IMG/VR virus record: IMGVR_UViG_3300027631_002180
Span: 1-21,634 of that record
From: a virus
Direction: 5' to 3' (one strand)
DNA length: 21,634 nt
Position numbers and translations under genes: made by a program
Shown here: positions 5,173 through 19,885 of the stretch, piece by piece
How positions within the stretch are numbered: position 1 is the first letter of the stretch
Layout: every line of letters starts with the position of its first letter
The notes under the pieces: model-generated
The model's input: only the letters and a program-made list of their open reading frames with translations
What the model was told of the DNA's origin: nothing
Database searches by the model: none

Positions 5173-5188
5173 AGTGTTCCTTGATATA

Positions 5189-5197: not shown

Positions 5198-5198
5198 A

Positions 5199-5215
5199 AA
5201 GGTTTTTATAACCTT
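5199..5215. repeat. Inverted repeat in a divergent intergenic region
   Basis: AAGGTT-TTTAT-AACCTT, a perfect 6-bp inverted repeat with a 5-nt loop, between the divergent Fe-S carrier and zinc-ribbon genes. It could be an operator or a small leader hairpin. It is short enough in A+T-rich DNA to be chance. Confidence 0.35.
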
Positions 5216-5226
5216 AATGTAAATAC

Positions 5227-6028: not shown

Positions 6029-6070
6029 GGTGATATGTCGTATAAAATTGTACATAACCATATTTAGCGA

Positions 6071-6079
6071 TATAAATAC
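6071..6079 (+). promoter_or_regulatory. T4-type late promoter for the H1-like gene
   Basis: TATAAATAC, a perfect T4 late core, ends 18 nt before the ATG at 6098, with GGAGG (6083-6087) between. Spacing matches the other late sites in the window. Confidence 0.78.
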
Positions 6080-6097
6080 TCTGGAGGATAATATACC

Positions 6098-6382
6098 ATG
6101 TTAAACGCAATTAAAAAATTATTTGGAATCAACCCATCAGATGCTGCTGTACCAGTAGAGCCAGCAGCTCCTTACAAGATCGATCCATTACCTGCGGGTA
6201 CTGAAGCAGCCATTATAACTACCCCTAATACTGTGGTAGTTGTAGCAGATGCTGTTGTACCAGCTGAGGTTGTTAAAGCAGCGCCTGCTAAACGCGGTCC
6301 AGCTAAGCCAAAAGCAGTTAAACCAGCTGTTGTAAAAGCACCAGCGGCTCCTAAAAAACCACGTGCTACTAAATCAGTTTAA
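6098..6382 (+). CDS. Ala/Pro/Lys-rich histone-H1-like small protein
   Basis: A 94-residue protein. Residues 1-10 are a short amphipathic start (MLNAIKKLFG), about 14-60 are Ala/Pro/Val-rich with few charges, and the last ~35 residues are a basic low-complexity tail built from AK, KP and AP units (for example APAKRGPAKPKAVKPAVVKA). Such tails resemble histone H1 and bacterial H1-like proteins, and they are expected to be disordered and to bind DNA. A strong Shine-Dalgarno (GGAGG, 10 nt upstream) and a perfect late promoter suggest abundant late expression, so a role in genome condensation or packaging is possible (inference). It overlaps the convergent uvsE by 14 bp. Low complexity means similarity to histones may only reflect composition. 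Confidence 0.78.
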   Translation: MLNAIKKLFGINPSDAAVPVEPAAPYKIDPLPAGTEAAIITTPNTVVVVADAVVPAEVVKAAPAKRGPAKPKAVKPAVVKAPAAPKKPRATKSV

Positions 6383-7391
6383 GTTCTACAGCCCGGTTGT
6401 ACACTTGGGCACTGGATAAATTCTTGCCCTTGCTTTCGCACATGATGTCAAAGTGTTCCCAGAAGCTGAGAGCCCAGTCAGTCACAGGTTGATTCCAATA
6501 CCAGTCACTGTGTGCCCGCATCTTTTGTTTTTTGTAGCCTGCAGCCAGCAGTGCCGCATGGTCTGGTAACACATCAACGGGATGATCAATCAGCACATCT
6601 TCTCTACTCACACTGTAATGGCACACTGGCCTTACACCGCGCCACGAATCAATAATACGTTTGACTCTATCGTCTGTGGGGTGAATATATTCCCCAGTGC
6701 GAATCCAGTGATGGTGAATATCCAACACTAGCGCACAATGATCCACTAGCTCAATGCTGCTATCCACACCCCAACAATTTTCATCATTCTCGATGGTAAT
6801 ACAATTACGAGCTTCTGGACTCAGTTTGGTTAGCGTTTCTTTGATTCCTTCTGGACCACGCTTGCCTGAGATATGCACATTGATCTTCATGTCTTGGAAT
6901 GTTTTGCCAAATCCCATCCAACGGGCCATGTCAGCATGATATTCAAATTCTTCAATGCTACGTTCCACAATGCCGGGATTTTCACTGGCCAACACACAGA
7001 ACTGTCCAGGATGAAAACTGATACGCACATCATGTTTGCGAGCAGCTTCGCCCACTGGGGCAAATATCCGTTCGCAATGCCGTTGTTGGTCTGGCTGTTG
7101 CCACCATGTAATCCAATCTTTTTCTGTGTATCCACTCAGCATTTCTGATCCAATACGCATCATTCTGCGTTCAGCAGGCAACTGTGCCACACGTTCAATC
7201 ATCTTCACAGCGGCGCTGGTGTTGTGATTCATCAGGTCATATTGACGCTGTTCAGATTCCAGCGGATGTTCACGAAGCCACCGCATGGTGGTACTGCGAC
7301 CATTCAGCACCCTGTTGTCGGCATTTACTTTCATACCTCGTACTTCGGAGGCATCATCTAGCCATTTACAAGCGTAACCAATTCGTTTCAT
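6369..7391 (-). CDS. uvsE: UV-damage endonuclease UvsE/UvdE (TIM-barrel AP-endonuclease-like)
   Basis: A 340-residue protein of the UVDE family, which nicks DNA 5' of UV photoproducts (pyrimidine dimers, 6-4 products) and abasic sites to start alternative excision repair. Metal-binding and catalytic positions are visible in order, numbering from ATG 7391: H127 (SFHPGQF), H173 (NVHISG), E201 (ITIENDE), D224 with following His (LDIHHHW), H258 (CHYS), H294 (AHSDWYW) and E319 (CESKGKN). The N-terminus (RIGYACKW) is typical of the family. ATG 7391 is preferred over an in-frame TTG at 7400. No Shine-Dalgarno is visible. A strong sigma70-type promoter with an embedded inverted repeat sits directly upstream, implying early and possibly repressible expression. 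The 3' end overlaps the H1-like gene on the other strand. Confidence 0.95.
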   Translation of the reverse strand: MKRIGYACKWLDDASEVRGMKVNADNRVLNGRSTTMRWLREHPLESEQRQYDLMNHNTSAAVKMIERVAQLPAERRMMRIGSEMLSGYTEKDWITWWQQPDQQRHCERIFAPVGEAARKHDVRISFHPGQFCVLASENPGIVERSIEEFEYHADMARWMGFGKTFQDMKINVHISGKRGPEGIKETLTKLSPEARNCITIENDENCWGVDSSIELVDHCALVLDIHHHWIRTGEYIHPTDDRVKRIIDSWRGVRPVCHYSVSREDVLIDHPVDVLPDHAALLAAGYKKQKMRAHSDWYWNQPVTDWALSFWEHFDIMCESKGKNLSSAQVYNRAVELKLI

Positions 7392-7410
7392 AATACACAA
7401 TCAATAAAAA

Positions 7411-7440
7411 TGGACATGTTATATTATAACACCATGTCCA
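7411..7440. promoter_or_regulatory. Inverted-repeat operator candidate over the uvsE -10 element
   Basis: Perfect 8-bp arms TGGACATG (7411-7418) and CATGTCCA (7433-7440) flank 14 nt containing the -10 box. Inside, GTTATA-T-TATAAC (7418-7430) is a second near-concentric palindrome. Placement on the -10 is what a repressor site would show; no regulator can be named. Confidence 0.5.
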
Positions 7441-7451
7441 TCCACAGTCAA
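7423..7451 (-). promoter_or_regulatory. Sigma70-type promoter for uvsE
   Basis: On the minus strand: TTGACT (7451-7446), 17-nt spacer, TATAAT (7428-7423). Expected start of transcription is near 7416, about 25 nt before the ATG. Same design as the promoters at 8229-8257 and 11032-11060. Confidence 0.8.
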
Positions 7452-7459
7452 CTTGTTGT

Positions 7460-7651
7460 TCACCAATGTCTAATCACGTTTGCAATAATAAAACAACAGG
7501 TAACACTGTGAAGTAACACCCAAAAAGTTTTAAGGAATAATGCAATCCTTGCTTCTCTCAAAGTAAGAATTGGCACGTCTGGTCGATCACTGTCCGAGCT
7601 TCCCATCAAATGACCAGTTGCTCTGGCCCAAACTCGTTCTAAACTATTCAA
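7460..7651 (-). CDS. Small membrane protein, conserved-looking phage hypothetical
   Basis: A 63-residue protein: a polar N-terminal half (to about residue 35), then one hydrophobic helix (about 38-60, including FWVLLHSVTCCFIIANVI) ending in RHW, so a single-pass inner-membrane protein with the C-terminus at the helix end. The start is TTG at 7651, overlapping the QueD-like stop as TTGA, with GAGGA 9 nt upstream inside that gene. The ribosome site and overlap argue for a real, translationally coupled gene. I recall similar short 'IIANxxxHW' proteins in T4-like phages but cannot assign a function; a lysis or membrane-stress role would be a guess. Confidence 0.65.
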   Translation of the reverse strand: MNSLERVWARATGHLMGSSDSDRPDVPILTLREARIALFLKTFWVLLHSVTCCFIIANVIRHW

Positions 7652-8154
7652 CTTAGCAAATCCTCATTCCACTCTCTGTGTCCTTCACGGAATGCCATAT
7701 TGGCCTGTGTCTCACGTACTTCTACCTTGTAACACCAAAGACGAGCTGCTTCTCCTGGTCCCCACATTTCTGGAATGTAAACACCATTCACATACTTGTA
7801 CAGCATGTCGCTGAGTCCTTCACAACCCAAACGTGGCAGTATTACTACCTTGGCCATTTTCTTTTCTTGTAGCAGTTTATATGTGGCCATTTCTGGATCA
7901 TCTTCTGCCACAATAAGTGTGTGGTCAAATTGATCTTCCAGTGTCTTTTTGAGTTCTTTTAGGCCACCATAATCAGCAGCCCAATTACGAACATCTAAGT
8001 CGTTTGTTCCAAAATAGAACTTCATGCTGAAGCTGTAGCCATGAATTAGATTACAGTGGCTATCACTACGCCATTGTCTGTAAGCACATGGAAATGCGTC
8101 CACGTATTCTTTTGTGCTTTGATACTTGTATACTACTGGTTGTAAATTTGCCAT
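7648..8154 (-). CDS. queD: QueD / 6-pyruvoyl-tetrahydropterin synthase family protein, variant zinc site
   Basis: A 168-residue T-fold protein. The family converts dihydroneopterin triphosphate to 6-carboxy-tetrahydropterin (QueD, towards preQ0 and queuosine or 7-deazaguanine DNA bases) or pyruvoyl-tetrahydropterin. Seen: catalytic Cys34 in SHCNLIHGY, D77/H78 in FDHTL, the substrate-anchoring Glu148 in VRETQ, and Glu112 in CEGLS. Of the three zinc histidines of canonical QueD, only H38 is clear. The AAH position reads A-Y25 and the HGH motif reads HGY40. So this is a divergent branch whose metal site or activity may differ. AGGAG lies 6 nt upstream of the ATG, and a sigma70-type promoter lies at 8229-8257. 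The downstream small membrane gene is coupled. The 105-nt upstream gap holds only this promoter and a leader. Confidence 0.85.
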   Translation of the reverse strand: MANLQPVVYKYQSTKEYVDAFPCAYRQWRSDSHCNLIHGYSFSMKFYFGTNDLDVRNWAADYGGLKELKKTLEDQFDHTLIVAEDDPEMATYKLLQEKKMAKVVILPRLGCEGLSDMLYKYVNGVYIPEMWGPGEAARLWCYKVEVRETQANMAFREGHREWNEDLLS

Positions 8155-8228
8155 TGTTATCTCCTAAGATTAAGCAATGGCATGCAGAGTTTATATTGCG
8201 GGATGAATGCCTAAGTCCGCATAAGTTA

Positions 8229-8257
8229 ATTGTATAGATTTATTTAGACAAAGTCAA
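8229..8257 (-). promoter_or_regulatory. Sigma70-type promoter for the QueD-like operon
   Basis: On the minus strand: TTGACT (8257-8252), 17-nt spacer, TACAAT (8234-8229). It begins just past the tail fibre stop (8260) and gives a leader of about 70 nt. The leader contains a weak GCGG...CCGC stem but no recognisable riboswitch. Confidence 0.7.
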
Positions 8258-8259
8258 TG

Positions 8260-9756
8260 TTATTGGCTACCAATCCGACCAAACCCTGCCCATTGTCCTG
8301 GTGTGCCTTCTGTCACGCACACCCATCCGATATAACTGTCTGTACCTGGATTTGTATTCCAGCAAATGTCACCCTTGTTGAAATAATGATGAGCCTCAGT
8401 GGGCGCACTGTGTCCTGAAGTAAATCGTTTACCTCCAATGCTGACATCACCGTTTACACTGAATTGTAAACTTGGATCTGGATTATTGATGTTCACACTC
8501 AGCGGACCAAAAACTTTTACAGGTTTTGATTGTGCCAGTTTTGTTCCTATTGTAATTTGTGTTGAATCTCCAAATAAGATTGGAACCTCACCAACTCCAA
8601 TAGTCATCTCTGTTGAGTTGTATAATCCGTTTGGCATCAAACGAGTAGTGCCAACTTGAACGCCAGCCGTAAAAGATCCACGCTCCGCATCAAGCGAATT
8701 GGTTATGGTATTACCTGAAACTGTTACATTATCTAATACACCCACTGATGTTAAACTACTATGTGTTACAGATGCACCTAGTGTGTTTTCACTCAGCGCA
8801 AGAGCATTATTGATATAATAAGATTTACCAGAGCCAAGGTCAATGTTTTCACTGGACCACAATCGAGTTGGCCCGCTCATCATTACAAGTTGTGCAGAAA
8901 ATGTTGGGTCTGTCCAAGCCAACCCCAAACCAAACGCACTCGTGTCTCTAGTACCCGAGAACTGTAGCGGATGTGTTCTATCAATTCTGTTGTCTGTCAC
9001 AACACTTCCGGCATTGATGACACCATACACATTCAACACGCCGCCGCCGTGTACCGGATCTCCAACGTTGACTTCCCCACTGTTTTTAATAGTGACACGG
9101 GGAATGTTGTCTGTGGTAATGGTTAAGTCATGGCAACTGACAGTTCCAAAACTACCAACGCCAATGCTAGGACTACCAATGCCAAGTTCAACGTTATTTT
9201 CAATAATGGTAATAGCTGAGCTGGGATCTTCTGTACCTATTCCTAACTTATTGAAATTGGTGTTAAAAAATGCAAATTCACCAATGCTTACATCACCGGA
9301 AACATTTAGTTTTGACAGTGTACCCACGCTGGTTAAACGACTGCTGGTGATGCCGCCGCCCAATGCTGTTGCACTGATTACTGGAATATTATCAATGCTA
9401 TAAGTGGAATTTGCAGAAATATCCAGATTGGCATTTGTCCATAGACGGTTTCCTAACCGGTACGCCAGTTGTGTTTGTCCAACACCGTGAGTCCAGCTGA
9501 AACCCTTTCCGTTTAATTCGCTTTCGGTGTTGTAAATCCAATCACCAACACTGGCTAGATTGCCGTTATCTGTAACTAAATTCTTAACATTGATAGTTTC
9601 AGCTTCAATAGTTCCAGCAACTGATAAGTTCTGGTTTATGCGAACATTGCCTGCAACGTTGATTGCGCCGGCATGTTGTACATCTCCGCGGGTGTTTAAC
9701 AGCGTTAAATCTGCTATTGCAACGGTTGTATCTTGGATATCAAATAGTTTAGACAT
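8260..9756 (-). CDS. Tail fibre / receptor-binding-type structural protein
   Basis: A 498-residue beta-rich protein, poor in Cys and rich in Gly, Ser, Asn and Thr. N-terminal repeats of the type 'GNVRINQNLSVAGTIEAETINVKNL' (shown in part) resemble triple-beta fibre shafts. Two copies of a ~65-residue module (about 85-150 and 278-345) follow. The C-terminus (about 459-495: YFNKGDICWN, then GWVCVTEGTPGQW.GFG) matches the end found on many phage tail fibres and spikes. The ATG at 9756 is chosen over an in-frame ATG at 9789 because the late promoter GATAAATAC begins right after the latter and a GAGAG ribosome site lies before the former. It follows the 399-residue gene on the same strand, but with its own late promoter. 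Confidence 0.85.
   Translation of the reverse strand: MSKLFDIQDTTVAIADLTLLNTRGDVQHAGAINVAGNVRINQNLSVAGTIEAETINVKNLVTDNGNLASVGDWIYNTESELNGKGFSWTHGVGQTQLAYRLGNRLWTNANLDISANSTYSIDNIPVISATALGGGITSSRLTSVGTLSKLNVSGDVSIGEFAFFNTNFNKLGIGTEDPSSAITIIENNVELGIGSPSIGVGSFGTVSCHDLTITTDNIPRVTIKNSGEVNVGDPVHGGGVLNVYGVINAGSVVTDNRIDRTHPLQFSGTRDTSAFGLGLAWTDPTFSAQLVMMSGPTRLWSSENIDLGSGKSYYINNALALSENTLGASVTHSSLTSVGVLDNVTVSGNTITNSLDAERGSFTAGVQVGTTRLMPNGLYNSTEMTIGVGEVPILFGDSTQITIGTKLAQSKPVKVFGPLSVNINNPDPSLQFSVNGDVSIGGKRFTSGHSAPTEAHHYFNKGDICWNTNPGTDSYIGWVCVTEGTPGQWAGFGRIGSQ
8707..9504 (-). repeat. Internal duplication in the tail fibre
   Basis: Two diverged copies of one protein module, about 9295-9504 and 8707-8925. 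Shared landmarks in order: G(F/L)xWT, an (N/T)RLW motif, N(L/I)D(I/L), xYxI(D/N)N, ALGG/TLGA and SxLTSVGxL followed by a VSG strand. This marks a duplicated fibre-shaft domain. Confidence 0.7.
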
Positions 9757-9777
9757 AGATAAAGTACTCTCTTTGGA

Positions 9778-9786
9778 GTATTTATC
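9778..9786 (-). promoter_or_regulatory. T4-type late promoter for the tail fibre
   Basis: GATAAATAC on the minus strand, 21 nt before the ATG at 9756 and identical to the site at 5189-5197. Confidence 0.75.
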
Positions 9787-9800
9787 CATGTTTTGATTGC

Positions 9801-11000
9801 TTACTGTACTTTAAGTAGGATTGTGTCTTCACCAATACGCCCATTCATCTTGGTGTCTGTGGCATTGATATCCTCTAAGAACTTGCGTAGAGCAATCTTG
9901 CCTGCTGACTTGAACTCTTTGAGTTTGTCTTCTGGCTTGCGAATAGTCTTTTGCACACTTTTAAACTCGTCAAAGTTGGTAATTGTGGTGCCTTTGACAT
10001 TCAGCGTGTTGAACTCACTGGCCACGTACTTGCCCAACTTGCGGGTTTTGGTGTTGAAAATCCACAATTCTCCAGCACCAATGATATCAGTGGGGTTAAT
10101 ACTCACAAGTTTTAGAGGCTCGTTGGTTTTCATAAACTTGAGTTTGGCCACAAGTTTTTCCTTGCTCACAGCTTTGGTCTTACGTGGAGCACGATTAACT
10201 TTGGCTTCTTGAGCCAGCATGTCGCAAGCCATTGCAATTTCTTGATAGAACACAATCATATTTTTAACTTGCTTACGGCTGCGGTGACTGTAGCCTTCTC
10301 GCAATTGATCGTCAGCTTTGCCACTAGCAAGTTCCAACAGCTCATTCAAATCACGCTCGTAAAAACCTTTGATAATACGTGCATGAGCAGCTTTAACTTC
10401 TTTGCCTTTCAGCAAGTTCAGCATCTTAAATGCTTTTGGATCAAAGTTTTCTGGATCAGTTTGAAAACTTTCAATAGCGTCTTCAATTTCCTCAGTCATA
10501 CGCATTGCACTTTCGCGCACACGCTCTTGAATAGTTGGCTGAACCGCTGTACTTTTAACTTCCACAACCGCAGCTTCGTCTATGTCGTCTTTGCCTTGCT
10601 CAACAATTTGAACAATTTCATTACGCAACCAAGCAGTGGTATCACGGCCCTTGTTAAAATCTTCACGCACAGCTGGCATACCACGCAGCAAACAACTTGC
10701 AATGGCACCCATGGTGATGTTGGTACGATTATCTTTGGTACGTTTGTAAGCAGCAATGTCTTCTTTGGTGCAACCAATATTAGTCATCCACTTGACAACT
10801 GCTGGCTTCAAATCCTTACCGCTGAACTCCATGCGGTAGTAGCTCATGGCACTGTGAAAGTGACGCAAGAATTGGTCAGTGTTCATATCTTCGCAAGTGT
10901 CCCATTTCGGACTGTAGTCCTTTTTGGCATTCTCGCGAACAGTCACACTGGTGACTTTTTTTGCTTTGGGTTTGATCTTTACGCCTGCTACTGTAGCCAT
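9801..11000 (-). CDS. Conserved T4-like phage protein of unknown function (399 residues)
   Basis: A soluble, highly charged protein with no signal peptide or membrane helix. The N-terminus (1-30) is basic. About residues 150-250 are helical and charged, including LREGYSHRSRKQVKN. The C-terminal ~110 residues hold the strongest landmarks: LVSINPTDIIGAGELWIFNT, KGTTI.NFD, SVQKTIRKPEDKLKEF and a final NGRIGEDTILLKV. I recognise this C-terminal pattern from uncharacterised proteins common in T4-like cyano/pelagic phages; I know no experimental role. AGGAG lies 6 nt upstream of the ATG, and a near-perfect sigma70-type promoter stands 32-60 nt upstream. Expression is therefore likely early and strong, arguing against a virion role. 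DNA or RNA binding would fit its charge but is unproven. Confidence 0.85.
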   Translation of the reverse strand: MATVAGVKIKPKAKKVTSVTVRENAKKDYSPKWDTCEDMNTDQFLRHFHSAMSYYRMEFSGKDLKPAVVKWMTNIGCTKEDIAAYKRTKDNRTNITMGAIASCLLRGMPAVREDFNKGRDTTAWLRNEIVQIVEQGKDDIDEAAVVEVKSTAVQPTIQERVRESAMRMTEEIEDAIESFQTDPENFDPKAFKMLNLLKGKEVKAAHARIIKGFYERDLNELLELASGKADDQLREGYSHRSRKQVKNMIVFYQEIAMACDMLAQEAKVNRAPRKTKAVSKEKLVAKLKFMKTNEPLKLVSINPTDIIGAGELWIFNTKTRKLGKYVASEFNTLNVKGTTITNFDEFKSVQKTIRKPEDKLKEFKSAGKIALRKFLEDINATDTKMNGRIGEDTILLKVQ

Positions 11001-11031
11001 TTTCTGCTCCTAGTTTGTTAAACAATAATGT

Positions 11032-11060
11032 ATTATAGCACCTATTTACATTCAAGTCAA
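11032..11060 (-). promoter_or_regulatory. Sigma70-type promoter for the 399-residue gene
   Basis: On the minus strand: TTGACT (11060-11055), exactly 17 nt, TATAAT (11037-11032), about 31 nt before the ATG at 11000. One mismatch from the E. coli consensus overall. Confidence 0.82.
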
Positions 11061-11064
11061 ATAT

Positions 11065-11080
11065 TTTTGGATAACCAAAA
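11065..11080. repeat. Inverted repeat between divergent promoters
   Basis: TTTTGG-ATAA-CCAAAA, a perfect 6-bp inverted repeat directly behind the -35 box of the early promoter and 5 nt before the late-type box of the opposite operon. Possible operator; chance is also possible. Confidence 0.4.
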
Positions 11081-11085
11081 TACTG

Positions 11086-11094
11086 ATTAAATAC
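11086..11094 (+). promoter_or_regulatory. Probable late promoter for the sugar operon
   Basis: ATTAAATAC, differing from the GATAAATAC consensus seen here by two bases, 21 nt before the ATG at 11116. A TATAAT hexamer follows at 11098-11103, but with no -35 box at the right distance. Confidence 0.5.
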
Positions 11095-11115
11095 TACTAT
11101 AATTTAAGGAACGTG

Positions 11116-12039
11116 ATGAAGAAAGTTCTCATAACAGGATTGTCAGGATTCATTGGCGGATATCTCCAAAATCGTTTAGCAAACCAATATCAAATTTTTG
11201 ATTTGGCATGTGACTTGTTGGACAAGGAAGCAATTGACAATCGATTAGCCGAAGTTGATCCAGAGTTCATCATCCATTTGGCTGCACGAACTGAAGTGGA
11301 AAAGAGCTTTTATGAGCAAACAACTTTTAGCCAAATCAATTATGTTGGCACTGTGAACATGATTGAATCAGCTAGGCATTTGAAAAATCTCAAACTGTTT
11401 GTGTTTAGCAGCACAATGGAAACTTACGGTTGGCAACCTGAAAGCGATTTGATTCGCGACGGTAAACCGTTTACTTTGCCAGTGTTTGATGAGTCAACCA
11501 AACAATATCCCAATGCACCCTATGCTGTGGCCAAAGTTGGTTGCGAACTTTATTTAGAATATGCACACCGATCGTTTGATTTTCCATTCTGTGCATTTAG
11601 ACAAACCAACACATATGGCAGACATGACAATGACTTCTTTGTGGTGGAACAAATTATTACACAGATGTTAGCCAACCCAGATGAAATTAATTTAGGCTAC
11701 GGTAAGCCTTACAGAAACTTCTTATGGATTGATGATTTAATTGAATTGTATGCTACTGTGTTAGAAAAATCAGAACAAGCTAACGGAGAAATTTTCTGTG
11801 TTGGCCCTGATAATGCACTTACTATTGAAAGTTTAGTTGAAAAGATAGCCACCAAGATGAACTGGGAAGGCAAAGTCAATTGGAATACAAAACCTAAACG
11901 TGATGGCGAGATCTATGTTCTAAACTCCACGGCAGCAAAAGCAGAACGCCTACTAGGATGGAAACCAACAGTTGATTTAGATACAGGTCTAGATAGAACT
12001 ATAGAGCTCTGGAAAAGCAAGAAAAATGAATCTAATTAA
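11116..12039 (+). CDS. Extended SDR: NAD-dependent sugar epimerase/dehydratase/reductase
   Basis: A 307-residue Rossmann-fold protein. The nucleotide-binding GLSGFIG is at 8-14, an AAR motif follows at ~56, SST at 98-100, and the catalytic Tyr136/Lys140 pair is in YAVAK. The extended-SDR C-terminal end is LLGWKPTVDLDTGL. The motif after the active Ser reads T-M-E instead of the T-D-E of 4,6-dehydratases, so an epimerase or 4-ketoreductase role is more likely. Next to an RfbH-type dehydrase it is the natural candidate for the final ketoreductase of a 3,6-dideoxysugar (inference). AAGGA lies 5 nt before ATG 11116; a GTG directly upstream (11113) is less likely. It overlaps the dioxygenase gene by 14 bp, so the two are co-transcribed. 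Confidence 0.87.
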   Translation: MKKVLITGLSGFIGGYLQNRLANQYQIFDLACDLLDKEAIDNRLAEVDPEFIIHLAARTEVEKSFYEQTTFSQINYVGTVNMIESARHLKNLKLFVFSSTMETYGWQPESDLIRDGKPFTLPVFDESTKQYPNAPYAVAKVGCELYLEYAHRSFDFPFCAFRQTNTYGRHDNDFFVVEQIITQMLANPDEINLGYGKPYRNFLWIDDLIELYATVLEKSEQANGEIFCVGPDNALTIESLVEKIATKMNWEGKVNWNTKPKRDGEIYVLNSTAAKAERLLGWKPTVDLDTGLDRTIELWKSKKNESN

Positions 12040-12766
12040 TCTTAATAATTTAACATCTGCATTTGCAAACTATAAATCTAGTCCGTTTGATCATTGCGTT
12101 ATTGATAACTTTTTATCAAACCCAGAAGTAATTGAGTCTGAATTTTTAGATTATAGTTCGCCTCATTGGTTAGAGTACAACAATCTTGTACAGCACAAAA
12201 AACTTAATTGTGATTGGTTTCTATTTCCTAAAAATACATATCAGTTGATTGCATATTTAAATTCTTCTGAATTTGTAGATATGCTTTCTAAGTTTGTAGG
12301 TTGTAAACTATATAGTGATCCAGGATTACAAGCAGGTGGCTGGCATATGCATGGCACCGGTGGTTCCCTTAATCCACATCTCGATTACTCTATACATCCA
12401 AAACTACCTTTACAACGTAAACTTAATCTTATAATTTATCTTAGTAGCGATTTTAAAGAAGAACACGGTGGCCACTTTGGTCTATGGACTGGTACCGATA
12501 CTCCTGATACACTAGTTAAAGAAGTGTCACCATCATTCAACCGTGCTATTATTTTTGATACTACACAGAATTCGTGGCACGGTCTTAGTCGTGTCTGCAA
12601 TACTCCAGAAGGTGTATATAGGAAAAGCATAGCAATTTATTACTTAACAGACCTTCAAGAGGACACAGATACTCGATCCCGTGCTCTATTTGGGTTAGTC
12701 GGCAATCAGCAAGCAATGGCAGATGAAGTAAATTCTTGCCCGCATTTAATTACAAATAAAAAATAG
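12026..12766 (+). CDS. 2-oxoglutarate/Fe(II)-dependent dioxygenase (prolyl-4-hydroxylase-like fold)
   Basis: A 246-residue protein with the double-stranded beta-helix metal triad: H118-x-D120 in NPHLDYSIHP, distal H185 in NSWHGLS, and the basic 2-oxoglutarate anchor in YRKSIAIYYL (R199/K200). The KLNLIIYLSSDF...HGGHFGLW strand pair is typical of phage and bacterial 2OG oxygenases. It uses Fe(II), O2 and 2-oxoglutarate to hydroxylate a substrate, which the sequence does not identify; protein side chains, sugars or nucleobases are all known for the superfamily. It lies inside the NDP-sugar operon, 13 nt before the RmlB-like gene, so a sugar or glycoprotein substrate is a reasonable guess. No signal peptide. 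Only a weak Shine-Dalgarno; the overlap with the SDR gene suggests coupling. Confidence 0.85.
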   Translation: MNLINLNNLTSAFANYKSSPFDHCVIDNFLSNPEVIESEFLDYSSPHWLEYNNLVQHKKLNCDWFLFPKNTYQLIAYLNSSEFVDMLSKFVGCKLYSDPGLQAGGWHMHGTGGSLNPHLDYSIHPKLPLQRKLNLIIYLSSDFKEEHGGHFGLWTGTDTPDTLVKEVSPSFNRAIIFDTTQNSWHGLSRVCNTPEGVYRKSIAIYYLTDLQEDTDTRSRALFGLVGNQQAMADEVNSCPHLITNKK

Positions 12767-12779
12767 GAAATATTCAATA

Positions 12780-13799
12780 ATGAAAAAAACAGTACTTGTT
12801 ACCGGTGGCGCAGGATTTATAGCACACATGGTAATTGAAACTATTTTAGATAGGACTGACTGGAATATTATTACAATTGACCGTTTAGACTTTTCAGGTA
12901 ACTTACATAGACTGCACGAAGTAGTTGCAGAACGACCAGAACATAAATCTAGAGTTAAATTTGTGTTCCACGATATGAAGTCGGAATTTAATGAACAAAT
13001 ATCAAATGCTATTGGCAATGTTAACTACATCTTGCACATCGGAGCTGCATCACATGTAGACCGGTCAATTGAAAATCCAATGGCATTTGTCTTAGACAAT
13101 GTTGTGGGCACTTGCAATGTTCTAAACTTTGCAAGAACTTGTACTAATTTAGAAAGATTTATCTACTTTAGTACAGATGAAGTGTTTGGGCCTGCACCTG
13201 ATGGAGTAGAGTATGACGAACGTGCTAGATATAATTCAACCAATCCGTATTCTGCTAGTAAAGCAGGAGGTGAAGAACTGGCTGTTTCTTATCATAACAC
13301 ATACAAACTACCTGTTTACATTTGCCATACTGTAAATGTGTATGGGCATAGACAACATCCTGAAAAATATATTCCTAAGTGTATTAAACATATTCTTAAT
13401 GACACTGAAATACTAGTACATGCAGATCCAGTAACCGACAAGCCTGGATCTCGACACTATGTACATGTTAAGGATGTAGCAGATGCATTATTATTCATTC
13501 TAGACTTGCCTCAAGACGTTTTTGAAAATGACTACGGCGGCGCCAAGTGTCCTAAATTTAACATTATTGGTTATACTGAGTTAGATAATTTAGAGATTGC
13601 ACAAGTGATTGCTAAGTGTATGGGTAAGGAACTAAAATATAAACTTGTAGATTTTAATACAGTAAGACCAGGATTAGATTTAAGGTATTCATTAAGTGGC
13701 GACTTGTTAAAAAAATTAGGATGGTCACCTCAAATGTCGTTTGAAGAACGTATACAAGAGTTAGTTGATTGGACATTGGAACATAGGCATTGGTTATAA
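12780..13799 (+). CDS. RmlB-type NDP-glucose 4,6-dehydratase
   Basis: A 339-residue extended SDR close to dTDP-glucose 4,6-dehydratase, which makes NDP-4-keto-6-deoxyglucose, the first committed step to most deoxysugars. Seen: GGAGFIA at 9-15 (the last Gly of GxxGxxG is Ala), the RmlB nucleotide-loop pattern DFSGNLHRL, ASHVDRSI, the dehydratase triad motif STDEVFG at 131-137 (D133/E134), catalytic Y157/K161 in YSASK, and the C-terminal RPGLDLRY...LGW. It looks like RmlB rather than the RfbG-type CDP-glucose dehydratase, although an RfbH homologue (normally CDP-dependent) follows. So the nucleotide carrier is open. AGGAA about 10 nt upstream overlaps the dioxygenase stop. Its stop overlaps the rfbH start by 1 bp (TAATG). 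Confidence 0.9.
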   Translation: MKKTVLVTGGAGFIAHMVIETILDRTDWNIITIDRLDFSGNLHRLHEVVAERPEHKSRVKFVFHDMKSEFNEQISNAIGNVNYILHIGAASHVDRSIENPMAFVLDNVVGTCNVLNFARTCTNLERFIYFSTDEVFGPAPDGVEYDERARYNSTNPYSASKAGGEELAVSYHNTYKLPVYICHTVNVYGHRQHPEKYIPKCIKHILNDTEILVHADPVTDKPGSRHYVHVKDVADALLFILDLPQDVFENDYGGAKCPKFNIIGYTELDNLEIAQVIAKCMGKELKYKLVDFNTVRPGLDLRYSLSGDLLKKLGWSPQMSFEERIQELVDWTLEHRHWL

Positions 13800-15121
13800 T
13801 GGAAAAAAATAATATTTTAAATAGTGTTTCAGATTTTATCAAAGATAAAAATAGTAAAAAGACTTGGGTAGCTGGTAAAGACTTTGTAAACTATGCTGGT
13901 CCTTACTTTGACGAAAATGAAATTGTATCAGCAGTATCTACTTTGTTAGACGGCTGGTTAGTAATGGGCTCAAAGTCTGTAGAGTTTGAGAAGAAATTCC
14001 CCAAGTACTTTGGCAAAAACTTTGGCATATTGACTAACTCTGGGTCTAGCAGTAATTTGTTAATGATGGCATCGCTTACTAGTAAGCGTGGTTATAATTT
14101 GCCCAAGGGAACAAAGGTATTAATGCCCATTGCAGGTTTCCCCACAACACTCAACCCTACGCTACAAGTTGGATTTGAACCCGTGTTTGTTGATATTGAG
14201 TTAGACACACTTAATTTAGATCTAACCCATGCAGAAGAATTAATTAAAGAACACAATATTCGTGTGATTACCTTTGCACACGTTTTAGGCAACCCGCCTA
14301 ACATGGATCGAGTGATGGAGTTAGTTAACAAGTATGACATGATTCTATTAGAAGATTGTTGCGATGCACTTGGATCTACTTATGACGGTAAACCACTAGG
14401 AACATTTGGAGAAATGGCTAGTTGCAGTTTCTATCCAGCACACCACATGACCATGGGCGAAGGTGGTTTTGTTTCTTGCAATACCTACGAACAGGAAGTC
14501 TTGTTACGTTCATTCCGCGAATGGGGTCGTGGTTGCTATTGTGTAGGGCCAGAGGCAAACAAACTAAAGTGCGGCTCGTGCGGCAAACGTTTTAATGAAT
14601 GGATACCTACAATGCCAGGTGAAATATTTGATCACAAATATGTCTATGATGAAATTGGTTACAACTTAAAACCAATTGAATTACAAGGTGCAATGGGTCT
14701 TGAACAAATTAAAAAGTTAGATGAGATACATGCATTACGTAAAAGAAATTATAAATTACTTTTTGATATCTATTCTAAGTACGAGGATTTCTTCCACTTG
14801 CCTAGGGCACAGGCTAAGGCAGATCCAAGTTGGTTTGCATTTCCATTAACTATTCGTGAAGATGCACCATTCAAACGTAGTGATATTGTCGACTATCTAG
14901 AAGAGAATCTAATTCAAACTCGTCCTTACTTTGCAGGCAACATTATGTTACAGCCGGCATATTCGCATATTATGGACCCACAGCAAGCTAAGGACAACTT
15001 TCCTGTTGCTACTTTTACAATGACTAATACGTACTTTCATGGAACTAGTCCTGTAATTACACCCGAGCAAATTGCTTATATTGGTGAAAAAGTTGACGGC
15101 TTTATGAGCCTATATAAATAA
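13799..15121 (+). CDS. rfbH: RfbH/E1-type NDP-4-keto-6-deoxyglucose 3-dehydrase (DegT/DnrJ/EryC1 fold)
   Basis: A 440-residue PLP/PMP-fold protein. In SFYPAHHMTMGEGG, His215 stands where aminotransferases have the PLP-binding Lys. This is the hallmark of E1/RfbH, which uses PMP and an Fe-S cluster to remove the C3 hydroxyl, leading to 3,6-dideoxyhexoses (abequose, paratose, tyvelose, ascarylose). Cysteines match the E1 [2Fe-2S] pattern: C188, then 57 residues, C246-x-C248 in WGRGCYC, and C261 in CGKRF. The last gap is longer (12 instead of 7 residues) and has an extra C258. The ATG at 13799 overlaps the RmlB stop as TAATG; in-frame TTG 13790 is less likely. A partner reductase (E3-like) and a sugar nucleotidylyltransferase are not in the window. 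Confidence 0.92.
   Translation: MEKNNILNSVSDFIKDKNSKKTWVAGKDFVNYAGPYFDENEIVSAVSTLLDGWLVMGSKSVEFEKKFPKYFGKNFGILTNSGSSSNLLMMASLTSKRGYNLPKGTKVLMPIAGFPTTLNPTLQVGFEPVFVDIELDTLNLDLTHAEELIKEHNIRVITFAHVLGNPPNMDRVMELVNKYDMILLEDCCDALGSTYDGKPLGTFGEMASCSFYPAHHMTMGEGGFVSCNTYEQEVLLRSFREWGRGCYCVGPEANKLKCGSCGKRFNEWIPTMPGEIFDHKYVYDEIGYNLKPIELQGAMGLEQIKKLDEIHALRKRNYKLLFDIYSKYEDFFHLPRAQAKADPSWFAFPLTIREDAPFKRSDIVDYLEENLIQTRPYFAGNIMLQPAYSHIMDPQQAKDNFPVATFTMTNTYFHGTSPVITPEQIAYIGEKVDGFMSLYK
15113..15120 (+). promoter_or_regulatory. T4-type late promoter inside the 3' end of rfbH
   Basis: A perfect TATAAATA formed by the last rfbH codons, 18 nt before the GTG at 15139, with AGGAG between. Spacing equals that of the site at 6071-6079, so it is unlikely to be just coding sequence. 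Confidence 0.65.
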
Positions 15122-15138
15122 AAAAACAGGAGATATTC

Positions 15139-15489
15139 GTGTATAAACTAGCATTAATAGAAATCGTGGACAAATATACAATTGCATCTTTAAAATTTGA
15201 CAAGGGTTTAGATTGTAAACCAGAATTAGATTTTTATAGAGAACAATTAACTGATTACGATATGGAACTTATCGCAGATGAGTTAGCGGAATTAAAAGAA
15301 ATCCACAGCCAGATCTGGGACCGAGAAAACGATTTTAAAAAGTTCACAGTGGAACACAAGTATCCTGTTGAAGAAGTTGCACGCCGTGCAATTGAAATTC
15401 GTAATATTAACAACGAACGATATGTTGTTAAGAATAAGATCGCTGAAAAACTCAACGATCCTATTAGAGAAGTAAAAAAATACGGTTAA
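15139..15489 (+). CDS. DUF6165-like protein of glycan gene clusters
   Basis: A 116-residue, mostly helical, soluble protein. Three landmarks fit the DUF6165 pattern as I recall it: the opening ALIEIVDKYTIASLKF, the central E-L-KEIHSQIWDRENDF, and the closing NNERYVVKNKIAEKLN...EVKKY. This family is often found in polysaccharide biosynthesis loci; its molecular role is unknown to me. The start is GTG, supported by AGGAG 6 nt upstream and by a late promoter at 15113-15120. The stop codon shares TTAA with the convergent glycosyltransferase-like gene (4-bp overlap), so the two halves of the island meet here with no terminator. Confidence 0.75.
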   Translation: MYKLALIEIVDKYTIASLKFDKGLDCKPELDFYREQLTDYDMELIADELAELKEIHSQIWDRENDFKKFTVEHKYPVEEVARRAIEIRNINNERYVVKNKIAEKLNDPIREVKKYG

Positions 15490-17243
15490 AGATCTTTTAA
15501 ACTATCCCACAAGTCGTCGACCGATAACGACAACAGGTGATTTCTATTATATTCTAATGTATCTCTTAAAATAGGAAATACCTGTTCTAATTTTTTCTTA
15601 CCTTCATCAGTGGTATAAAATTTTATCTGATTAGCTATAAAATCATGTTTTTCAAAACCCTCTGGCATTGAATCGTAAGACTCGTCAAATAGTTCTGGGA
15701 AGGATTTAAAACCGTATCGACGTAAAGTAGCAAGATGATGCATGGGTCCTACTACAATAAATGGATGGCAACAAAAAATAAGTTTGTAAATTTTTTCAGT
15801 TATATGGGACGGCATGCCATCACCACCGATGTGAGTTTCAGTTACAATTGAAAAATAAGAATTTCCAATCCAAGACGGATTAATTAGCGATCCACCTATA
15901 AGAGGGTCGCTTAGATCAAAAGAGTCATCTTCTACTTTCTTTATTTCTATGCCAGGGCTAGATCTGACATAATCGATAAATTTTTGTTGTTCTTCGTTGG
16001 TATTAGAATTTTGCCAATTTACACAAAATTCATTAAACACACTGTAGCCTTCGTTATTTCCAAACGGGGAGACCATACCATTCCAAGAATGCATGCCGTA
16101 ACCTAACAAGTTTTTATATTCCATACGTTTATAAAATACATACCTGTGGTAAACGATTCTATTGTTAAGATATAAAAACAGATAGGATTTATTTTTATAA
16201 TTATTACAGTAAATTTCCAACCAGTCAATACTATTTGAAGATTCAAGAATTTTAGGAGTTATATATCCGTAAGTATTAAGATCTTTAAATTTTACTAATT
16301 TTTTGTTTGGATCTTCTTTGCGCATTTCTGCTTTGTATTTTTCTACTCGTCTTTCAATAGTAGAATCTGCTCCAGCAAATATGATATTATCAAGTCTTGT
16401 AATCTTTAATAGACGGCATATATTTTCAACTTGTCTATGTATTACTGAAAAATCCCAAACGTCGTCAATTGGAGAAAAGATTGGTTCAAAACTACATAAC
16501 AATAATATCTTAAGACGATCCTGATTAATAAGATCTATAATTTGTTTACTCAATAAAAGTAACGGCCAGCTATAACTGTATTCTGCAACAGTTATTACTA
16601 TAGGATATACGTTGAAATCGTTTTTATAATTATCAATGTCTGATAACGATATGCAATTCATATTATAGTTTTTAGTTTCTAATGAAAATCTACCGTTTTG
16701 AAAAGAAAAATTATCTACTATCTGTTGAGTAGATTCAGATTTAATTTTGAGGTTTCTAATAAAGACAGTACCTTCTTGTTGTATAGGAAGCGGACTATCA
16801 AGAGCTCCTATGTGCAAATGAATAATACCAGACTCGCTTGGCGCCATTTCAATAGTAACACTAGTCCACTTTGACTTTAACAAGTGTTCGTCAGAATTAA
16901 AAGATTGGCCGCCTAAAAATTTCCAACTACCTGAATCTAAAATAGAAATATTACAATTAGGAGCTGTTCCTAATTTTATATCTACTGTAACCTGGTATAC
17001 TGTATTTTTCAATACTTCGTGTCGTGAATATAAATCCCAGGACTCCGAAGTTAACTTACATAAAATTTCTTTTTCAGTATACGGATCCCATTTGTAATTT
17101 TTTAACAAATGTTTGTTAATATCATAAGCCCAGCAAATAAAGTAAGGGCATGTGTTGTAACTCTCATGAAAAACACTTGTTATATTGCCTATTAATTTAT
17201 TTGAGCTTCCACTCGAATTACTAAAAACAAAATTCACTTTCAT
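15486..17243 (-). CDS. Glycosyltransferase-like protein with N-terminal beta-sandwich domain
   Basis: A 585-residue protein. Residues about 65-170 are beta-strand rich (VYQVTVDIKLG, WTSVTIEMAPSESG, VFIRNLKIKS) and look like a jelly-roll, carbohydrate-binding-type module. Residues about 350-580 carry a pattern shared with the gene at 19875-21005: FLYLNNR....HR, (T/S)ETH (468-471), ITEKIYKLI (481-489), HPFIVVGPMHHL, GFKSF and DESYD (520-524). That C-terminal signature is common in phage and metagenomic proteins thought to be GT-B-like transferases with a nucleotide-sugar-binding TEK-type motif; activity is not proven. It overlaps the radical SAM gene before it by 4 bp (ATGA), with GGTGA before its ATG. 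Base composition is strongly A+T-rich. Confidence 0.72.
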   Translation of the reverse strand: MKVNFVFSNSSGSSNKLIGNITSVFHESYNTCPYFICWAYDINKHLLKNYKWDPYTEKEILCKLTSESWDLYSRHEVLKNTVYQVTVDIKLGTAPNCNISILDSGSWKFLGGQSFNSDEHLLKSKWTSVTIEMAPSESGIIHLHIGALDSPLPIQQEGTVFIRNLKIKSESTQQIVDNFSFQNGRFSLETKNYNMNCISLSDIDNYKNDFNVYPIVITVAEYSYSWPLLLLSKQIIDLINQDRLKILLLCSFEPIFSPIDDVWDFSVIHRQVENICRLLKITRLDNIIFAGADSTIERRVEKYKAEMRKEDPNKKLVKFKDLNTYGYITPKILESSNSIDWLEIYCNNYKNKSYLFLYLNNRIVYHRYVFYKRMEYKNLLGYGMHSWNGMVSPFGNNEGYSVFNEFCVNWQNSNTNEEQQKFIDYVRSSPGIEIKKVEDDSFDLSDPLIGGSLINPSWIGNSYFSIVTETHIGGDGMPSHITEKIYKLIFCCHPFIVVGPMHHLATLRRYGFKSFPELFDESYDSMPEGFEKHDFIANQIKFYTTDEGKKKLEQVFPILRDTLEYNRNHLLSLSVDDLWDSLKDL

Positions 17244-18601
17244 TTTTTGTCACCATTTGGATAGAACAAATTTGATATACTTGGTATATAATCGGCAATA
17301 TTAATTTCTCTGTGGTCGTCTAATACGTGTATTCTTTCTTTAAATATATTAAATAATCCAGGATCGTCTGGAGTTTTTAATTCATTAATCAGTAGGTGTA
17401 TCTTAGAATCTAATCCTGGAAACTCTTTCAGTATCTGACTATCGGATAGATATTTTGTCAGTTTGTATATTGCTATTGCTTTAAGGTTGTCTGGTAATAA
17501 ATTAATACGTTGTTCTTCGGGATACATAACTAGGTTAATATTATAAGGCCATTCTTTAAAATACGGATATTCGTTGGCCCGATCCTCTAACCAGTACAAT
17601 AAATCAACAAGATCCATAATAGTTAAAATACTAACAGTGATATTAGTAAGTATTTTAACATTTGGATACTTCATATATTCTTTAGCTGCAATATAATTTT
17701 TACTAATTTGACTCCACTTACTAGGAAATCTCGAATAGTTGTTTACTTTATCATATCCGTCAATACTTGCAATAAGCTCAAATTTCTTATACTTGGGCAT
17801 CAACTCGAAAAACTTTTTATTTAAATTTGTAAAGTTACTAGAGATGAATACTGTTATATTTTTTGCATAATCTTTTTCAACACAATAATCCAATGTCTTT
17901 AAAACAAACGGCATTAATGTAGGCTCGCCTCCTGCAAAACTTAAAATTTCTAAGTTAGGCGCAATCTTTTCAAAGTTTTTCCATACGGCTTCGTTGTCGT
18001 CCCATCCTACTTCACTAACATTCTTCCATAATTTATTGTTCTCTGTAATGCCAGGAGTAGTAGACTTTGACATAAATCTACCATCTTTGATTTCGATGCC
18101 TTTAAATTTTGTAGATAGTTCTGTTAGTTCTTTAGCAACTTGCGAACTATCGTAACTGTTACACATAACACATTTAATATTACATAGATTACTAGGCTTT
18201 AACTCTAATATAACTGGAGTATGCCTAGCCATGTAGTGGCTTTTTATAGTATTATCAACTAGTGTAAGTGCGTTAATATCGTTTTTGTATTCGTTAACAG
18301 ATCGTTTCCTCATACTGGCATCGCCGTCTCGAATACATAGGTCACAAGATTGCGGAATACGACCTTCTGTGAGATCCTGTCGAAGAGTCTGCATAAATTT
18401 ACTATTCCATGCAGTATCAAATGTATCACCGTTAGCTATACTAATGACAGGGCCGTCACCCCAACTATGATACATGGGTTGAAATTGGTAACAACAGGGT
18501 TTTAAATGTCCAGCTGGATTCGTGCTTAATTCTAAGAAAGGATAAAAACAAAATGTTTTACTTTCAATTATTTCTTTTCTTAATTTGTTAATATCATCCA
18601 T
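17240..18601 (-). CDS. N-terminal-twitch radical SAM protein (copy 1)
   Basis: A 453-residue protein. The radical SAM CX3CX2C motif is C140/C144/C147 (SNLCNIKCVMC), and GGEP at 224-227 is the SAM-binding strand. Auxiliary-cluster cysteines lie before the core, the layout of 'twitch domain-containing radical SAM' proteins: C18, C36/C37 in HLKPCCY, C86/C89 in CDLC. The order is therefore permuted relative to SPASM enzymes. It would use two 4Fe-4S clusters; the substrate is unknown. It is paralogous to the gene just upstream (18602-19885), whose stop directly abuts this ATG, and it overlaps the next gene as ATGA, so the four minus-strand genes form one tight operon. AGGAG lies 11 nt before the start. 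Confidence 0.88.
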   Translation of the reverse strand: MDDINKLRKEIIESKTFCFYPFLELSTNPAGHLKPCCYQFQPMYHSWGDGPVISIANGDTFDTAWNSKFMQTLRQDLTEGRIPQSCDLCIRDGDASMRKRSVNEYKNDINALTLVDNTIKSHYMARHTPVILELKPSNLCNIKCVMCNSYDSSQVAKELTELSTKFKGIEIKDGRFMSKSTTPGITENNKLWKNVSEVGWDDNEAVWKNFEKIAPNLEILSFAGGEPTLMPFVLKTLDYCVEKDYAKNITVFISSNFTNLNKKFFELMPKYKKFELIASIDGYDKVNNYSRFPSKWSQISKNYIAAKEYMKYPNVKILTNITVSILTIMDLVDLLYWLEDRANEYPYFKEWPYNINLVMYPEEQRINLLPDNLKAIAIYKLTKYLSDSQILKEFPGLDSKIHLLINELKTPDDPGLFNIFKERIHVLDDHREINIADYIPSISNLFYPNGDKK

Positions 18602-19885
18602 TTAGACATTATCTCCTAAAAGTAATGCAGACTTTACTTTATTCATTTCAGGAATAGTTGTGAATGTATTTTCGTCTCTTATATGATCTAATTGACGAGT
18701 TATTTCAATGAAACTTTTTGCAGCAACTTTATCAAAGGGTGTTGTAAGCTCGTGAAGAATATAAGAGAATCTACTTGAAATATCAGTTTCGTATTTCTTG
18801 TTATATTCAGCAACAAAAGTTTCTAATTTCTCGATGATTTTTTTCTTAAAATCGTCTGGCAATATACGCACATGATAATGTTTGGGATCCATTAGCATGT
18901 TAATAAAGAAATTGTCATAATTAATGCCAAACTCTTTCTTGGATTTGACAACACCGAAGTTGATTAATTCTGTAACTATTTCGGGCAATCTTGAAACATT
19001 CCATGCTCCAATAGTTAGACCTGGACGTACAATGATATTATCCAGTTCCATCATTGCTTTAAGATTTGCCTCTACTTTACTCCATACTGTTCCTGCACGT
19101 ATTAATTCGGCACGTTCGCCAATTTCATCAATGCTAGGCCATACTTCGATTTTACCGTGATCCCATTGACGCCAGTAGTCCAACACATTTTTGCCGCCAT
19201 ATGTGAGTGTACTGGCATTTGTGTTATATGAAATGCGTACATCAAAACGTTTGTGTTCAACTAGCATGTCTAATATTTGCCAATGTTCTGGCATCATCAA
19301 GGGTTCGCCGCCCGCAAAATAAATCTTTTCTACATGATCAACTTGTTCTTTTAAAAAGTCAAAATTAGTCAAGTCGTTGACACTGGCTATATTCCAAACT
19401 TTATCCTGTTCGTCAATCCATTTTAATTTCTTAGCATCAGGCACCCATGTTGAACTGTAGCGTGGCCCACAGCTGCGACATTTAAAATTGCAAAGATTAC
19501 TAAAACGGAAATCCCAATATTTGAGCTCCATATTAGTACAGGTACCGTCAGGTTCTGTAATATGGGGAATCTCTTTTAAAACATCGGGAAAGTCTCTAGC
19601 ATGATGCACTCGTCCACTTTCGCCTGTTACACGTTCTTGATCAAAACATTTGTTACATATTTCCGGCTCTATACCGTTGATCATGTCTTTGCGAACGGAC
19701 TTCATGTTATCGCTGTTCCAAATCTCTTCAATTGATTGCGTATTTAAATCGCCAGCAAAATAGTTGTGTGTACTGGTCAAACAGCATGGGATAACTTTTC
19801 CACTAGGTTCAAACGCAAGATGCATCCATGGAACAGCACATACCGTTTTTCTAAATTCGCTTATGTCTTTAATTTTAATTGGCAT
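18602..19885 (-). CDS. N-terminal-twitch radical SAM protein (copy 2)
   Basis: A 427-residue protein with the same architecture as its neighbour. Pre-core cysteines are C16 (VCAVPWMHLAF), C34/C35 (VIPCCL) and C77/C80 (CNKC), following the typical EIWNS..M..VR linker. The radical SAM motif is C132/C136/C139 (CNFKCRSC), and GGEP is at 192-195. Two 4Fe-4S clusters are expected, with SAM cleaved to start radical chemistry. Such proteins are frequent in T4-like marine phages, usually near glycan genes; the substrate is not known. The start has AGGA about 6 nt upstream inside the preceding gene, with which it overlaps by 11 bp. The stop is immediately followed by the ATG of copy 1. Confidence 0.9.
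   Translation of the reverse strand: MPIKIKDISEFRKTVCAVPWMHLAFEPSGKVIPCCLTSTHNYFAGDLNTQSIEEIWNSDNMKSVRKDMINGIEPEICNKCFDQERVTGESGRVHHARDFPDVLKEIPHITEPDGTCTNMELKYWDFRFSNLCNFKCRSCGPRYSSTWVPDAKKLKWIDEQDKVWNIASVNDLTNFDFLKEQVDHVEKIYFAGGEPLMMPEHWQILDMLVEHKRFDVRISYNTNASTLTYGGKNVLDYWRQWDHGKIEVWPSIDEIGERAELIRAGTVWSKVEANLKAMMELDNIIVRPGLTIGAWNVSRLPEIVTELINFGVVKSKKEFGINYDNFFINMLMDPKHYHVRILPDDFKKKIIEKLETFVAEYNKKYETDISSRFSYILHELTTPFDKVAAKSFIEITRQLDHIRDENTFTTIPEMNKVKSALLLGDNV

Follow-up and report, generated by a model that had tools for sequence, protein, structure and literature searches.

The locus described here raises the question of which sugar a phage would make with an enzyme of the E1/RfbH type, and on which nucleotide carrier it would do so. 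Bacterial O-antigens are known to contain 3,6-dideoxyhexoses, which act as strong surface antigens and are made there via cytidine diphosphate (CDP) or guanosine diphosphate (GDP) sugars. The stretch that we analysed (the window) is a 21,634-base IMG/VR virus record, a fragment of a phage genome, which encodes a DegT-fold protein (P0004) immediately after an RmlB-like nucleoside diphosphate (NDP)-glucose 4,6-dehydratase (P0003). Our overall reading, which we regard as reasonably probable, is that both genes belong to a swappable sugar-modification cassette in which P0003 and then P0004 would yield an NDP-4-keto-3,6-dideoxyhexose, the carrier likely being deoxythymidine diphosphate (dTDP).

Identity and placement of the RfbH-like protein

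P0004 scored 446.8 bits against the NCBIfam RfbH equivalog NF011936, above the cut-off of 423, and aligned end to end with the E1 enzyme of Yersinia pseudotuberculosis (PDB 3bcx; phmmer E = 3.9e-102). An initial annotation of this DNA had seen a histidine in place of the lysine that binds pyridoxal 5'-phosphate (PLP), together with cysteines resembling those of the E1 cluster. Counting in the phmmer alignment bore this out, since H215, C188, C246, C248 and C261 of P0004 correspond to H220, C193, C251, C253 and C261 of E1, and the features in question lie as follows.

13799..15121, + strand: RfbH/E1-type NDP-4-keto-6-deoxyhexose 3-dehydrase (P0004, 440 aa), called from NF011936, phmmer, AlphaFold/Foldseek and the tree
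14360..14362, + strand: Cys188 codon, predicted [2Fe-2S] ligand 1 (aligned to E1 C193)
14441..14443, + strand: His215 codon, replacing the PLP-binding Lys (aligned to E1 His220)
14534..14542, + strand: Cys246 and Cys248 codons, predicted [2Fe-2S] ligands 2 and 3 (aligned to E1 C251/C253)
14579..14581, + strand: Cys261 codon, predicted [2Fe-2S] ligand 4, 12 residues after C248 (clade spacing)

His215 and all four cysteines were invariant in 81 of 81 sequences (the window and 80 viral relatives), and the same five residues were also invariant in an 85-row alignment (A3) that includes cellular members. The claim that the first three cysteines follow the E1 spacing proved exact, the pattern being C-x57-C-x1-C-x12-C in P0004 as against x7 at the last step in E1, and the fourth cysteine likewise aligns with the E1 ligand despite the difference in spacing. 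P0004 therefore departs from the full E1 pattern (C-x57-C-x1-C-x7-C) in that last interval of 12, a pattern not known as a requirement of the family.

The AlphaFold model of P0004 had a predicted local distance difference test score (pLDDT) of 95, and its top Foldseek match in the PDB was E1 3bcx (E = 2.7e-42; template modelling scores 0.88/0.91), which outranked ColD and every aminotransferase. This confidence was reached once cellular sequences had been added, the prediction from viral sequences alone having pLDDT below 50 at residues 213-220 and 243-287. Because of the fold match to E1 and the aligned position, it is likely that His215 faces the cofactor in the modelled structure. In the tree, P0004 grouped with dehydrases that have the histidine and four cysteines, outside the Lys-type aminotransferases and the ColD-type enzymes. 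Structure prediction against E1/RfbH and phylogeny with DegT aminotransferases, two of the checks proposed at the outset, were thus in accord with the original call, and sequence and model together identify P0004 as an E1/RfbH-type 3-dehydrase whose catalytic activity is predicted. Two other identities were discarded: that of a true Lys-type DegT aminotransferase, by the histidine at position 215 and the position in the tree, and that of ColD, which has none of the four cysteines.

By its sequence P0004 belongs to a separate subfamily composed of phage RfbHs and a few cellular ones. Relatives of P0004 are encoded by at least 410 viral contig stretches, the best 80 being 77-86% identical to it, while the top match in cellular genomes was 64% identical (one contig of a Pirellula metagenome-assembled genome, MAG) and the next 49%. 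The viral counts given below refer to these best 80 loci and to 28-30 records, many of which are fragments and not independent of one another, and mechanical rules together with clustering by blastp served to assign neighbouring gene families from open reading frames (ORFs). The window falls within a 31-row clade that holds viral sequences and the Pirellula contig, and this clade comes together with a group of 13 rows (cyanophage, marine and huge phage, Nostocales, Nitrosomonadaceae, Nitrospirae and others) with a Shimodaira-Hasegawa-like approximate likelihood ratio support of 100, apart from the 61-row clade that contains E1. The interval between the third and fourth cysteines follows the same division, with 11-12 residues in 44 of 44 members of the window's clade and 7 in 61 of 61 members of the E1 clade. 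In genomes of the order Nostocales most matches to the RfbH model scored 658-764 bits, and two HT-58-2 members of the window's clade scored 369-374, under the cut-off. The Pirellula contig (L085:529-3895) carries rfbH, a short-chain dehydrogenase/reductase (SDR) gene and rmlB after a transposase-like ORF, its rfbH and rmlB being 64% identical to the viral genes; transfer from phage to bacterium or an assembly chimera are both possible.

Dehydratase partner, nucleotide carrier and reductant

The gene before rfbH encodes the dehydratase.

12780..13799, + strand: RmlB-type (dTDP-type) NDP-glucose 4,6-dehydratase (P0003, 339 aa), called from the TIGR01181 score, TDE and YxxxK
13173..13181, + strand: T132-D133-E134 dehydratase motif of P0003

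P0003 scored 242.8 bits with the dTDP-type profile (TIGR01181) and 65.3 with the CDP-type profile (TIGR02622), and both of its dehydratase motifs, T132-D133-E134 and Y157xxxK161, are intact. From its sequence P0003 is an RmlB-type 4,6-dehydratase of the dTDP type, with predicted activity. The coupling of the RfbH-like gene to an RmlB-like dehydratase had been noticed before, and the intact motifs and the overlap of the two genes by 1 bp (stop/start) uphold it. A dTDP-type 4,6-dehydratase lies within seven genes of rfbH in 72 of the 80 viral loci. Within the window's own clade, a cellular Nostocales locus (L133) has a dTDP-glucose 4,6-dehydratase over the cut-off (380 versus 365.1).

The genes of the CDP route showed the opposite distribution. 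An RfbF-like gene was found near rfbH in none of the 80 viral loci and in none of 10 cellular loci of the same clade, compared with 33 of 70 other cellular loci; the cellular contrast (0/10 versus 33/70) gave a Fisher p of 0.004, a value that ignores relatedness and contig ends. RfbG reached 472-507 bits in four loci of the E1 clade (L141, L104, L132 and L095) and exceeded its cut-off in none of 30 viral rfbH records, in which no sugar nucleotidyltransferase (PF00483) was detected either (0/30). Both RfbF and RfbG were absent from the scanned ORFs of the window, which is a fragment. As for the reductase, E3-type domains were not detected in viral rfbH records (PF00175 0/29, PF00111 0/29), nor in the scans of the window. 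SpnQ, a [2Fe-2S] relative that uses dTDP sugars, is reduced by generic ferredoxin or flavodoxin systems (PMC8987622), which would explain the missing E3 in the viral records. Because the CDP genes, the nucleotidyltransferase and E3 are absent from the sampled viruses and the partner dehydratases are of the dTDP type, the gene context makes dTDP the likely carrier, with the reductant likely supplied by the host. The initial annotation had already suspected dTDP instead of CDP as the carrier, and this context strengthens the idea, but to call such a carrier new was too strong, because SpnQ was already known to use dTDP, on a 2-deoxy substrate.

Several observations weigh against the proposed dTDP pathway from P0003 to P0004. 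Only a fragment is available, and RfbF, RfbG, E3 or a thiamine diphosphate (ThDP) gene could lie elsewhere in the genome; a relative in cyanophage RN05-S has a nearby gene annotated as a cytidylyltransferase; and no finishing ketoreductase or branching enzyme was identified in the window. P0003 itself lies under the TIGR01181 equivalog cut-off of 365.1 bits. Its relatives in T4-like cyanophages (62% identity) belong to a phage group annotated there as 'nucleotide-sugar epimerase', its closest relatives in other phages are usually not accompanied by rfbH, and the usual partner of rfbH is a different dehydratase (cluster 1, approximately 30% identical to P0003), so that the exact pairing of P0003 with P0004 rests on gene adjacency.

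An alternative is a classical CDP route, in which P0004 would use CDP-4-keto-6-deoxyglucose from host genes or from phage genes beyond the fragment while P0003 served another sugar. That P0004 exceeds the RfbH equivalog cut-off, that its top structural match is a CDP enzyme and that P0003-like genes occur without rfbH in other phages all fit such a route. We nevertheless consider it unlikely, since RfbF-like or RfbG genes accompany rfbH in no sampled viral locus or record, a dTDP-type dehydratase does so in the 72 loci mentioned above, P0003 and rfbH overlap, and P0004 differs from E1 in both clade and cluster spacing.

The swappable cassette and possible later steps

The + strand run from 11116 to 15489 consists of the SDR, a 2-oxoglutarate (2OG)-Fe(II) oxygenase, P0003, P0004 and a small DUF6165-like protein, and is met from 15486 on by converging - strand genes for putative glycosyltransferases and two radical S-adenosylmethionine (SAM) proteins.

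11116..12039 (ATG; GTG at 11113), + strand: extended SDR (P0001), backbone gene adjoining the cassette, called from the L194 comparison and Ser-Tyr-Lys motifs
12026..12766, + strand: 2OG-Fe(II) oxygenase (P0002), with which the variable cassette begins (PF13640, E 6e-15)
15139..15489, + strand: small protein ending the + strand run, weak DUF6165 match (PF19662, E 5e-4, below cut-off)
15486..17243, - strand: putative glycosyltransferase (585 aa), convergent and within the variable region, a tentative call; the protein encoded at 19875-21005 matches its C-terminal part (E 8e-10)

The SDR, RmlB-like and RfbH-like genes had been listed correctly before, and the oxygenase ORF (12026-12766) and the small ORF (15139-15489) had been overlooked.

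Comparison with other phage records revealed where the cassette begins. L194, a record of 161 kb, is 97.2% identical in DNA over positions 5122-12015 of the window, encodes the SDR with 94% protein identity and lacks rfbH; the similarity stops where the SDR ends and restarts in a radical SAM gene near 17,450. L193 has yet another gene content at this site, and 25 of the 26 searched records with SDR relatives are devoid of rfbH, the remaining one having it elsewhere in the record. It follows that a swappable cassette occupies the region between 12026 and about 17240 and that the SDR is a backbone gene. At the cassette site L193, a close relative, encodes a small cytidylyltransferase-fold-like protein instead (L193:6912-7343; MKIVLVTGGFDPLHSGH...).

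P0001 has SSTMETYG where the TDE motif of a dehydratase would be, and carries the Ser-Tyr-Lys motifs of SDRs; the earlier remark that it lacks the dehydratase motif therefore stands, whereas its suggested role as ketoreductase of the pathway is not supported, as it is a backbone gene kept where rfbH is missing. We accordingly rejected P0001 as a demonstrated member of the pathway. It could still be a finishing ketoreductase or epimerase recruited from the backbone, making the SDR, oxygenase, RmlB and RfbH genes one pathway, in favour of which are the common strand, the 14-bp coding overlap with the oxygenase gene, the intact catalytic residues and the presence of an SDR (cluster 2 or 11) within seven genes of rfbH in 70 of 80 viral loci, P0001 being the only candidate in the window for this role. 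P0001 may act on the pathway product, but we judge the single-pathway version quite improbable, given that the 97%-identical phage retains this SDR without rfbH, that it is common in phages without rfbH (both genes occurring in 1 of 26 records) and that it is not of the SDR type that accompanies rfbH. Because the SDR is no demonstrated pathway ketoreductase, the abequose- or paratose-type product first suggested lost its support, and no RfbF, RfbG, E3 or recognizable RfbJ/RfbS-type reductase was seen.

The hypervariability of this slot also admits the explanation that P0003 and P0004 are independent genes brought together by accident and not acting in sequence, as P0003-like and rfbH genes of L050 and L069 occupy different operons. 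Against this very unlikely coincidence stand the 1-bp overlap of the two genes, the near-universal pairing of a 4,6-dehydratase with the 3-dehydrase around viral rfbH, and the need of P0004 for a 4,6-dehydratase product. Least probable of all is that P0004 works mainly as an aminotransferase dependent on PLP or pyridoxamine 5'-phosphate (PMP) or as a hydrolytic ColD-like dehydratase, for although no E3-like reductase was found in the 29 viral records and SpnQ transaminates when its reductase is absent (PMC8987622), the catalytic residue is His and not Lys, the four cluster cysteines lacking in ColD-type enzymes are invariant in all aligned relatives, and the acceptance of generic ferredoxin or flavodoxin reductases by SpnQ means that an absent E3 is no bar.

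Returning to sequential action of P0003 and P0004, the neighbours of viral rfbH genes point to what may follow. A ThDP enzyme lies within seven genes of rfbH in 72 of 80 loci, and these enzymes are acetolactate-synthase-like (split or whole), pyruvate dehydrogenase (PDH)-E1-like or transketolase-like. According to a review (PMC12247030), the use of ketone acceptors is known from only three ThDP superfamilies, namely decarboxylase, alpha-keto acid dehydrogenase 2 and transketolase, and YerE adds a C2 unit to CDP-3,6-dideoxy-4-keto-glucose. The ThDP enzymes near viral rfbH come from these three superfamilies. Most simply, viral RfbH would make a 4-keto-3,6-dideoxy sugar for exchangeable ThDP enzymes to branch; no ThDP gene was found in the window, a fragment that may not include it. 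In 32 viral loci the acetolactate-synthase-like enzyme is split into two briefly overlapping ORFs (clusters 3 and 4), of which the C-terminal one retains an intact ThDP motif. In five loci (L006, L009, L010, L016 and L027) a ThDP enzyme in the neighbourhood of rfbH is accompanied by a 3-dehydroquinate-synthase-like cyclase, an SDR and an aldolase-like gene. Eleven viral loci (L002, L006, L007, L008, L013, L014, L016, L028, L029, L032 and L055) encode a second, ColD-like DegT enzyme with the histidine but no Fe-S cysteines, mostly beside gmd-like and fcl-like genes, which suggests a GDP-colitose-like route in those same phages.

Regarding the other genes, P0002 has 318 viral relatives, a minority of them near rfbH. 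Relatives of the small 15139-15489 protein sit near P0003-like dehydratases in L050, L051 and L069, and a pattern scan of viral contigs found no relatives of this protein or of the 15486-17243 protein, for which a Pfam scan also gave no match. Two adjacent 'twitch' radical SAM proteins (17240-19885, - strand) exceed the NF033640 cut-off, and a different relative of 900 aa stands beside them in L194. The left part of the window holds tail-fibre-like genes and, on the - strand, an A-type Fe-S carrier and an Fe/Mn superoxide dismutase (4846-5199 and 5495-6061), as well as a UvdE-type endonuclease and a QueD-like 6-pyruvoyl tetrahydropterin synthase among the backbone genes (6369-8154); the phage carrier could in principle help to supply Fe-S clusters. 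A megablast of the window against named phages gave no match.

Proposed pathway and comparison with known systems

From what we observed of the enzymes (their identities, conserved motifs and clade), of the gene context and of the swapping of the cassette, we infer the dTDP carrier, reductant, product, branching and acceptor as follows. The phage would be a T4-like aquatic one, with a cassette from 12026 to 15489 that probably extends to about 17240. P0003 would remove the C6 hydroxyl of NDP-glucose, most likely dTDP-glucose of the host, to give NDP-4-keto-6-deoxyglucose, whose 4-ketone would form a Schiff base with PMP in P0004. His215 would then abstract a proton from C4' of PMP, the C3 hydroxyl would depart, and a ferredoxin or flavodoxin system of the host would reduce the glucoseen intermediate by way of the [2Fe-2S] cluster (C188/C246/C248/C261), releasing NDP-4-keto-3,6-dideoxyhexose. 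A ThDP enzyme would then, in most related phages, likely attach a carbon branch to C4, with reduction of the product by an SDR, and the sugar would presumably be attached to a glycan on the phage or host surface. More tentatively, and with slightly less than even confidence, we propose that an RfbH subfamily dominated by phages, in which the [2Fe-2S] loop is lengthened, makes dTDP-4-keto-3,6-dideoxyglucose from host dTDP-glucose and host reductant, as a hub for interchangeable ThDP enzymes leading to many C4-branched dideoxy sugars, the window being a variant with no visible ThDP step.

Were this true, phages would have a deoxy- and branched-sugar chemistry of their own that draws on host dTDP-glucose, which bears on the decoration of virions or the remodelling of host surfaces, and the cassette offers a defined enzyme set for testing a new NDP-sugar and the effect of the lengthened cluster loop. 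Carriage of rfbH by phages is not in itself new, as the gene is already in published viral gene lists (PMC10653327, PMC11295528). A literature search for K12452 as a viral auxiliary metabolic gene returned no paper, and in a non-exhaustive search we found no description of such a separate clade, of its longer cluster loop, of a context that is consistently of the dTDP type or of ThDP partners that can be swapped.

Among characterized enzymes, E1/AscC/RfbH, the CDP-6-deoxy-L-threo-D-glycero-4-hexulose-3-dehydrase of Y. pseudotuberculosis (3bcx), shares with P0004 the fold, the catalytic His, the four cluster cysteines and approximately 38% identity. P0004 differs from it in belonging to a separate clade, in a Cys3-Cys4 spacing of 12 instead of 7, in having a dTDP-type dehydratase as partner and in the CDP genes and E3 not being nearby. 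With regard to the whole CDP-3,6-dideoxyhexose pathway (rfbFGHI), RfbF, RfbG and E3/RfbI were not found in the window scans or in the sampled viral rfbH loci and records. P0003 resembles RmlB in its TDE and YxxxK motifs and its best match to TIGR01181, and differs in falling below the equivalog cut-off and within the cyanophage 'epimerase' group. ColD (GDP-4-keto-6-deoxymannose 3-dehydratase) is also a PMP-dependent His enzyme of the same fold, but it has no Fe-S cysteines and lies outside the clade of enzymes with the histidine and four cysteines. SpnQ, the dTDP-4-keto-2,6-dideoxyglucose 3-dehydrase of the spinosyn pathway, which was compared through its published description, shares the His, the [2Fe-2S] motif, the dTDP carrier proposed here and the use of generic ferredoxin/flavodoxin reductases (PMC8987622), whereas its substrate is a 2-deoxy sugar and no 2,3-dehydratase is among the scanned ORFs of the window. 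Finally, the Yersinia pathway of YerE and yersiniose A is CDP-linked and the window has no ThDP gene, while viral loci also have PDH-E1-like and transketolase-like split enzymes; yet in that pathway too the product of a 3-dehydrase is the keto acceptor of a ThDP enzyme, and ThDP genes likewise stand near viral rfbH.

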